From the NCBI GenBank assembly GCA_031291645.1, contig JARLIQ010000047.1, positions 1 to 64,000 on the forward strand: a DNA stretch of 64,000 bases, read 5' to 3'. Origin of the DNA: Caulobacteraceae bacterium (lineage in GTDB: Bacteria > Pseudomonadota > Alphaproteobacteria > Caulobacterales > Caulobacteraceae). The position numbers and the translations under genes were made by a program. Positions 12,183 to 24,992 of this stretch are shown piece after piece (within the stretch, counting starts at the first letter, position 1; each line of letters opens with the position of its first letter). The notes under the pieces were generated by a model, which was not told where the DNA came from, did no database searches, and worked only from the letters and a program-made list of their open reading frames with translations.

Positions 12183-12791
12183 TCAGGCCCCCGGCTCTTC
12201 CCGGCTTTCGAAGATATCGTCCACCAGGCCCCAGGCCTTGGCCTCCTGGGCGTTCATGAAGTGGTCGCGGTCGAGGGTGCGCTCGACCTCCTCGTAGGTG
12301 CGGTGGCAGTGTTTGGCGTAGAGTTCGTTCAGCCGCCGCTTGGTGACGATGATGTCCTCGGCGTGGCGCTCGATGTCCGAGGCCTGGCCGGAGAAGCCGC
12401 CGGACGGCTGATGCAGGATGATCCGCGCATTGGGGGTGCTGGCGCGCCGGCCGGCCTCCCCGCCCATCAGCAGGAATGCGCCCATCGAGGCCGCCATGCC
12501 CACGCACAGCGTCGCCACCGGGCTGCGGATGTATTGCATCGTGTCGTAGATCGCGAGCCCCGCCGTCACCGACCCGCCGGGCGAGTTGATGTACATCGAG
12601 ATCTCCTTCTTGGGGTTCTCGGCCTCCAGGAACAGCAGCTGCGCGCAGATCAGCGCCGACATGCCGTCCTCGACTGGCCCGTTCAGGAAGATCACCCGCT
12701 CGCGCAACAGCCGCGAGAAGATGTCGAACGCGCGCTCGCCGCGGCTCGACTGCTCGATCACCATCGGCACGAGGTTCATCAGGCCGCCCAT
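12183..12791 (-). CDS. ClpP-like ATP-dependent protease proteolytic subunit
   Basis: [13 protein letters not shown] (Ser) and [10 protein letters not shown] (His). Confidence 0.9.
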
Positions 12792-21856: not shown

Positions 21857-22654
21857 TCAATAGTGCTCGTCGTGGTCCAGCCCTTCCACGATCGCGTAGC
21901 GGGTCCATAGGCGCACCAGGTCCTCGGACGGGCCGACCATGGCCTCCAGCCGGCCGGGATCGAGCACCGTCAGCGCGCCGTTGCGCAGGTCCAGGATGTG
22001 GTCCTCGCGCAGCCGGCGCAGCATGCGGTTGACGTGGATCGGCGTCAGGCCGGTGGCGTCGGCGATCAGCGGCTGGGTCAGCGGCATCTTGAACCGGTCG
22101 CCAGGCGCCAGCGGATAGCGCCGGCTGGAGCGCACGGCCAGTTCGAGCATCAGGTGCGCGACCCGCTCCAGGGCGCTGCGCTGGCCCAGGCTGGTCAGGT
22201 GGTCCATGGTCAGGTGGTTGTCGCGCTCCAGCATCCAGACGAAGCGGTCGCTGAAGCCGGGATAGCGGGCGCGCAGGTCGGTGACCCGCTCGGCCGGGAT
22301 GACGCACAGGCTGATGTTGGTAAGGGCCTGAGAGGCGTGGGACATGCTGGTCATGCCGGCCGGCTCCTGGCCGAACAGCTCGCCCGGCAGGATGAAGCGC
22401 AGGATCTGGCGGCGGCCGTCCTCCAGGTCCTGGTGCAGGCAGACCCAGCCCGACACCAGGTTGTAGAGGTCGCCGTGGCGGTCGCCCTGGCGGTAGATCG
22501 GCGCGCCGGAGTCGAGCAGCCGCGCGCCGCGCCGGGCGTCCCTCAGCTCCCGGAAACCCTCGCCATCGCCAAGGGCGCCGCACAGGCCCAGCGGCCGGGC
22601 CGAACAGAATGCGCAATTCATCTTGTAGGCAGTGATCGGAATGTCGGCGGTCAT
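21857..22654 (-). CDS. Crp/Fnr family regulator with FNR-like Fe-S cysteine pattern
   Basis: N-terminal C-x2-C-x7-C (NCAFCSARPLGLC) and SLCVIP cysteine at the FNR C122-equivalent position; C-terminal HTH. Confidence 0.9.
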   Translation of the reverse strand: MTADIPITAYKMNCAFCSARPLGLCGALGDGEGFRELRDARRGARLLDSGAPIYRQGDRHGDLYNLVSGWVCLHQDLEDGRRQILRFILPGELFGQEPAGMTSMSHASQALTNISLCVIPAERVTDLRARYPGFSDRFVWMLERDNHLTMDHLTSLGQRSALERVAHLMLELAVRSSRRYPLAPGDRFKMPLTQPLIADATGLTPIHVNRMLRRLREDHILDLRNGALTVLDPGRLEAMVGPSEDLVRLWTRYAIVEGLDHDEHY

Positions 22655-23876: not shown

Positions 23877-24701
23877 CTAGTGGCTGAAGAGTACGCACTT
23901 GGAGGAGCTTGCAAGCAAGTCCTCCGTGACGCCCCCCAATATCCATTCGCGCAGCCGCGCGTGGCCGTAGGCGCCGGTGACGATCACGTCCGCGCCGTGC
24001 CGCGTGGCCGCGTGCTCCAGGTCGTCGGCGATGGTGGCGCGGCTGCGCGCGACGGTCTCGGTCCGGGCCTTGATTCCGTGCCGTTCGAGTCGGCCCGCGA
24101 TCTCGCCCAGGCCACCGCGTTCGGCGACCGGCTTGAGGTCGCCCTCGATCTCGACGATCACCACCTCCTCGGCCCGGCGCATCAGCGGCAGGGCGTCCGC
24201 CAGGGCGCGCCGCGATTCGCGGGTGTCCTTCCAGCCGACGACGATCCGCGAGGCGTTGAGCGGCTTGGCCGGATCGGCGGCGAACAGCACCGGCCCGCCC
24301 GCCTCCATCACCACGTCCGCCGGCGTCGGCGCATAGGAGGAACTAGCATGCTTCTCCGGGCGGCTGGCGATGATCAGGTCCGCGCTGCGGCCGTGCAGCG
24401 CCAATTCCCGCGCCGGATAGTCCATGCCGCTGATCCAGCGCACGCCGCCCTTCACCCCCGAGGTGGCCTCCCGGAAGCGCTTCTCGGCGATCGGCAGGTC
24501 GGCGATGATCCGCCCGCGCATCGCCTCGATCACCGCGCCGTCGGCGGCCGCATAGCCCGAGCTGAACACCGGATAGAAGGCCTGCGCGCCCAACCCGATC
24601 ACCATCGCGTCGAACTGCGCGGCCACCTCCACAGCCAGCTCCAGGCGGGCGTCCGATCCGGGACCCGGCTCGACGTGAACGAGAATGGTCTTGTAGGTCA
24701 T
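23877..24701 (-). CDS. universal stress protein family
   Basis: YKTILVHVEPGP; IVVGWKDTRESRRAL; DVIVTGAYGHARLREWILGGVTEDLLA. Confidence 0.92.
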   Translation of the reverse strand: MTYKTILVHVEPGPGSDARLELAVEVAAQFDAMVIGLGAQAFYPVFSSGYAAADGAVIEAMRGRIIADLPIAEKRFREATSGVKGGVRWISGMDYPARELALHGRSADLIIASRPEKHASSSYAPTPADVVMEAGGPVLFAADPAKPLNASRIVVGWKDTRESRRALADALPLMRRAEEVVIVEIEGDLKPVAERGGLGEIAGRLERHGIKARTETVARSRATIADDLEHAATRHGADVIVTGAYGHARLREWILGGVTEDLLASSSKCVLFSH

Positions 24702-24767
24702 CGGGTTCTCCGAGGCCGTCGCTTGCGTGCCAGACTCGCAACCTGATCCCGGCGGCGACTCTCGGCT

Positions 24768-24781
24768 GTGATCCAGATCAA
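24768..24781. promoter_or_regulatory. FNR-box-like site 1
   Basis: GTGAT-CCAG-ATCAA, 9 of 10 to TTGAT-N4-ATCAA; centre about 73 bp from the USP start. Confidence 0.55.
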
Positions 24782-24810
24782 ACGCGGTATCGCGCCCGGT
24801 GGCGGTCGGG

Positions 24811-24824
24811 CTGATCCAGGTTAA
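24811..24824. promoter_or_regulatory. FNR-box-like site 2 (weaker)
   Basis: CTGAT-CCAG-GTTAA, 7 of 10; centre about 64 bp from the micropeptide ATG. Confidence 0.35.
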
Positions 24825-24881
24825 GGCGCCCCGCGCACGAGGGCCCGTAGCGTCCCGGCTACACAGTCGGGCGGGAACGCC

Positions 24882-24992
24882 ATGGGCGTCGACAACATCG
24901 TGGTCGGACTGGTCGTCACGACCTTCATCATCTTCGGCGTCTGCCTGTTCGCGGTCTCGATCTACGCCTCGGGCGGCGCGTCCAAACGCTAA
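24882..24992 (+). CDS. small single-TM membrane protein (36 aa), below the ORF-track size cutoff
   Basis: MGVDNIVVGLVVTTFIIFGVCLFAVSIYASGGASKR*; hydrophobic core, positive C-terminus, upstream purine-rich gcgggaacgcc. Confidence 0.6.
   Translation: MGVDNIVVGLVVTTFIIFGVCLFAVSIYASGGASKR

Follow-up and report, generated by a model that had tools for sequence, protein, structure and literature searches.

Small proteins of the membrane are easy to overlook, even though low-oxygen respiration can depend on them, as CydX and CcoM show. CcoM is encoded by an orphan gene, and CydH (YnhF) of the E. coli bd-I oxidase is a tiny single-transmembrane (TM) protein with a link to low oxygen, and its gene stands apart from cydAB. 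CydX carries the motif YxxWxxGx15E/D (PMC4325964), while CcoM is tied to a low-oxygen context (PMC10433244), as is the micropeptide described here. FixT, a member of the FixLJ regulon, is a feedback inhibitor of FixL (PMC7078487).

The window is a 64-kb stretch of DNA from a Caulobacteraceae bacterium, in which an ORF of 36 codons plus stop at 24882..24992 on the plus strand would encode the single-TM micropeptide MGVDNIVVGLVVTTFIIFGVCLFAVSIYASGGASKR, for which family members are found in relatives. Divergent from it lies a universal stress protein (USP) gene at 23877..24701 on the minus strand, with its start at 24701 and a Pfam Usp match (PF00582) of 1.5e-10. Both the ORF and the divergent USP gene of the first-pass annotation were borne out, and the two FNR-like sites that it had scored 9/10 and 7/10, with centres 43 bp apart, were found where it had placed them. 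The distal FNR/FixK-like palindrome (GTGATCCAGATCAA, 24768..24781) matches 9/10 positions and is centred 73 bp 5' of the USP ATG and 107 bp 5' of the micropeptide ATG. The proximal palindrome (CTGATCCAGGTTAA, 24811..24824) matches 7/10 positions of TTGAT-N4-ATCAA, or 8/10 of TTGAY-N4-RTCAA, with its centre 64 bp 5' of the micropeptide ATG. The distal site is unusual because only 0.26 sites with at most one mismatch are expected in the 64 kb, where 2 were found; the sole further one-mismatch FNR-like site of the window is located at 12586-12599 (TTGATGTACATCGA). Considering that the window holds 140 sites with at most three mismatches, the proximal site is without weight alone, and it gains weight only because homologous genes have an FNR box about 62 bp upstream. 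Since the proximal site stands at this conserved distance and the 9/10 site at 73 bp from the USP gene, the simplest reading would be one site for each divergent gene, and the strong distal site could also act on the micropeptide gene from farther upstream. A gene for a Crp/FNR-family regulator with a cysteine-rich N-terminus (CAFCSARPLGLC), at 21857..22651 on the minus strand and about 2.2 kb from the micropeptide gene, is given as context and as a candidate regulator. Its N-terminal cysteines are possibly Fe-S binding; in Caulobacterales, a comparative study finds FixK only, without FnrN (PMC4999443).

Searches with the single peptide alone returned weak matches in congeners and family members, several of which were, by inspection, standalone ORFs of 34-42 codons with a common core. 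Matches inside long ORFs (L006, L007, L009-L015, L017, L018) were set aside as chance, as was L016, located inside a long TonB-receptor-like ORF. A profile built from six relatives (A1) gave best E values of 1e-17 to 1e-19 (top 6e-19) and, at E<=0.05, had matches in 132 of 390 genomes from the same GTDB family as the window, a count whose weak end includes non-standalone matches inside long ORFs. The congeners G001 and G002 were without a match in the A1 search, and such presence and absence calls are limited by the shortness of the profile and the draft state of the genomes. A larger profile (A3) matched 107 of 199 genomes of at least 95% completeness, from 11 of 21 genera, at E<=0.001. We fetched 60 loci from the best and most diverse matches and added the window; percentages given below describe those loci, not the whole family, and locus counts ignore kinship, the loci being phylogenetically non-independent. 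A small ORF with the family core was present in all 60 loci and in the window, mostly of 33-42 aa with a few longer tails, and its start, stop and core were conserved among relatives, with poor conservation outside the hydrophobic core in the family alignment. Comparison of the coding sequences supports purifying selection on the micropeptide, with changes between close pairs mainly synonymous and a pooled pN/pS of 0.35 over 87 non-independent pairs. This ratio and the profile matches to standalone ORFs uphold the earlier proposal of a real, conserved single-TM micropeptide; a lack of conserved start, stop and core, which the proposal had named as counting against it, was looked for and not found. 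Within Caulobacter (g22), two loci (L131, L132) carry a divergent peptide type, MPIAQLAYLGFVLAAFGVFMLALGSVWIAERLSDD, with an acidic C-terminus and a perfect FNR box at 61 bp.

Searched against Pfam and NCBIfam, the peptide gave nothing over a curated cut-off and chance-level matches only, although individual members may still be annotated as hypothetical proteins. No PDB chain matched the peptide or the profiles, a plasmid collection gave no match, and a literature search for the peptide found no description. In a single-sequence structure prediction, residues 3-30 of the peptide form a helix with a mean pLDDT of 88. As judged from sequence, the 36-aa peptide belongs to an unnamed family of predicted single-TM membrane micropeptides, comprising the Caulobacter group and short relatives in other Alphaproteobacteria, and the ORF at 24882-24992 is almost certainly a real gene that gene finders missed.

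The predicted regulation of the micropeptide family is conserved more strongly than its sequence. Outside g7, an FNR/FixK box of at least 8/10 was found at 50-85 bp in 34 of 37 members, with a median box-to-ATG distance of 62 bp and 29 of the 34 boxes within 57-66 bp. Boxes of at least 9/10 in the same interval were present in g22 (20/20), g3 (6/7), g20 (2/2), g10 (1/1) and the paralogous g22b type (2/2), and the g1 boxes scored 8, 8 and 9. By comparison, a score of 9/10 is attained by 0.9% of random windows of equal size. Upstream of long ORFs in the same loci the share is 7.9%, which further FixK targets in these loci have probably inflated. In the congener G004, the box TTAATCTGGATCAA is located 64 bp from the ATG, a distance equal to that of the proximal site in the window. 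A TTGAT-N4-ATCAA-type palindrome at activator distance is conserved in the homologs, the window site scoring 7/10, and these boxes, predicted from sequence, support the oxygen-responsive FNR/FixK-type promoter with class-II-like spacing that the first-pass annotation had suggested. Taken together, it is very likely that 24882-24992 is both a real gene and a member of the oxygen regulon.

In genus g7, none of the 24 members had an FNR box in the scanned upstream regions, which have a different element in common, one that fixK also has in its upstream region. A FixJ-type matrix, trained only on six fixK promoters of other genera, beat every shuffle (0/200 each) in 22 of the 24 g7 members, where the element begins 82-93 bp before the ATG; the matrix was positive in 0 of 20 g22 members. 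Since fixK is a known FixJ target in Caulobacterales (PMC4999443), the g7 element is most simply a FixJ site, and we infer that FixJ would bind it. Such an exchange of a FixK for a FixJ site would be a clean case of regulatory rewiring with the signal unchanged. We also infer that g7 is Phenylobacterium and g3 Brevundimonas. At eight g7 loci (L073-L077, L080, L081, L083), the peptide gene is transcribed divergently from a gene for a small c-type cytochrome, and the spacer between the two holds the FixJ-type element.

When A3 was run against 241 alphaproteobacterial genomes, the 11 best matches outside the family (L167-L177) had E values of 4e-7 to 1e-3; they were found from the protein profile alone, and are short matches of modest protein similarity. 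Nine of the 11 have a perfect TTGAY-N4-RTCAA box 60-81 bp from the ATG, one has an 8/10 box at 64 bp and one has none. Because these candidates came from protein sequence alone, the upstream box is an independent criterion, and such genes can also be sought by their conserved promoter box, a second feature that does not depend on their sequence. A distant candidate in a FixL locus of a Xanthobacteraceae MAG (L215, MPIDVASIFILCGIVLAFTLFAGTLMWADHQTNGVKK) has a weak score (E 0.007) and a 10/10 box at 66 bp.

At least one of the genes fixL, fixJ, fixK and fixT stands no more than a few kb from the peptide gene, in several different orientations, in about 70% of the 60 loci, and these neighbours were often joined by cydC (g22) or ccoN (G004, some g22 and g7). 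As gene order varies while the company stays constant, a functional link is suggested rather than inherited gene order. In Caulobacter, the peptide gene adjoins fixL in C. vibrioides DSM 9893 and OR37, so that the function of a family member can be tested in a harmless species open to genetic work. Compared with these loci, the window copy has by all appearances moved to a place beside the universal stress gene. In the window genome, a perfect box (TTGACCTAAATCAA) precedes ccoNOQP; the genome also has cydA, and it contains 27 perfect TTGAY-N4-RTCAA sites versus 2 for a reversed control pattern. The case for the suggested co-induction with USP is weaker: the USP gene has its own 9/10 box, but its pairing with the peptide gene is local, the recurrent neighbours being fixL, fixJ and fixK, and few other loci (L114, L118, L120, L121) have a USP-like gene close to the peptide gene. 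In two of these, from g3 (L120, L121), the opposite strand carries a USP gene about 370 bp downstream of the peptide gene; this USP gene has a perfect FNR box of its own and makes a second USP-peptide pairing.

On this basis, we consider it reasonably probable that the window ORF encodes a membrane protein that is regulated by oxygen and has an accessory part in the microaerobic respiratory chain. Falling oxygen would lead to transcription via the FNR/FixK-type site, which precedes the start codon by about 62 bp and would be in a class-II activator position if the leader were about 20 nt; in g7 a FixJ-type site would take its place. Once translated, the micropeptide would reside in the inner membrane as a single pass with its basic C-terminus in the cytoplasm. 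Considering that the C-terminus is more basic than the N-terminus in 54 of 61 members, an N-out/C-in topology is probable under the positive-inside rule. There it would assist or modulate the microaerobic respiratory chain as a small protein comparable to CydX, CydH and CcoM, though it is none of these three. This respiratory role is the weakest step, and we regard the case for it as evenly balanced. The peptide is present with cbb3 only, with bd only and with both oxidases, and some genomes that have it lack a detectable FixL; because its presence tracks no single oxidase, the respiratory role rests on regulation and neighbourhood. The same mixed oxidase co-occurrence and FixL-less genomes make a dedicated one-oxidase subunit or a FixL modulator unlikely.

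Were the peptide nevertheless a dedicated extra subunit of one terminal oxidase, either cbb3 (like CcoM) or bd (like CydX or CydH), its size and single TM, which resemble those three proteins, would be explained, as would the gene adjoining cydC in g22 and standing 526 bp upstream of ccoN in G004. The peptide is also enriched in ccoN-bearing genomes (strict matches 44/56, Fisher p=3e-6, uncorrected for phylogeny). However, it occurs in cydA-only genomes (e.g. G013, G050, G139) and in ccoN-only genomes (e.g. G011), CydX and CcoQ have genes of their own after cydB and within ccoNOQP, respectively, and alignments to the known small subunits stay at the level of a scrambled control, which leaves this explanation improbable. 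It also seems unlikely that the peptide belongs to the low-oxygen response as a general small stress protein of the membrane that has no specific partner in respiration: the repeated association with fix, cyd and cco genes suggests a respiratory link, although the poor conservation outside the hydrophobic core, the variable genome position and the USP neighbour in the window would suit such a protein. A feedback modulator of the membrane-bound FixL kinase, by analogy with MgrB on PhoQ, might be expected where the gene adjoins fixL or fixJ in many genera, apparently under the same cascade, and where FixL usually has N-terminal hydrophobic segments. Two g22 loci (L099, L108) have the peptide with a FixL that lacks hydrophobic segments, and in three class genomes (G743, G800, G816) a candidate peptide gene follows a box of 8/10 in G800 and 10/10 in G743 and G816, but FixL gave no match at E<=1e-40. 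In the window genome, the FixL homolog is on another contig with no peptide adjoining, and we consider such a modulator quite unlikely. That 24882-24992 is a chance ORF beside an FNR-regulated USP gene could be argued from its shortness and from a 7/10 proximal site that is common by chance, but profile matches to standalone ORFs that keep their start, core and stop in many genera, together with the conserved promoter spacing, make this extremely improbable.

Extending the preferred reading of an accessory membrane protein of the microaerobic chain to the whole class is more tentative. A class-wide alphaproteobacterial family of 29-40 aa single-TM peptides may be a core, overlooked output of FNR, FixK and FixJ, acting with a partner common to cbb3 and bd respiration, and its promoter may have been rewired between FixK and FixJ in one lineage within the oxygen cascade. 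Such partners might include the quinol pool, the bc1 complex or the aa3 oxidase being replaced.

Among known small subunits, CcoM of the Pseudomonas stutzeri cbb3 oxidase (PDB 5djq chain N) is likewise 36 aa long with a single TM helix and a basic C-terminus, whereas the micropeptide family is also found in genomes without ccoN. Homology to CcoM, CydX or CydH was rejected, as hhalign scored them no better than a scrambled CcoM, and CydH differs in having no profile similarity to the micropeptide. Identity with CcoQ/FixQ was discarded as well, because the micropeptide is not encoded inside ccoNOQP; the window genome has a separate CcoQ-like ORF of 51 aa between ccoO and ccoP. CydX (YbgT) of cytochrome bd resembles the micropeptide in its length of about 37 aa, its single TM and its link to microaerobic respiration, but the micropeptide is without the CydX motif. 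A CydX substitute is ruled out, since the window genome, Caulobacter and others have a separate gene for a true CydX after cydB. Finally, FixT is often encoded in the same cluster as the micropeptide; FixT is a soluble receiver domain, in contrast with the predicted membrane peptide described here.
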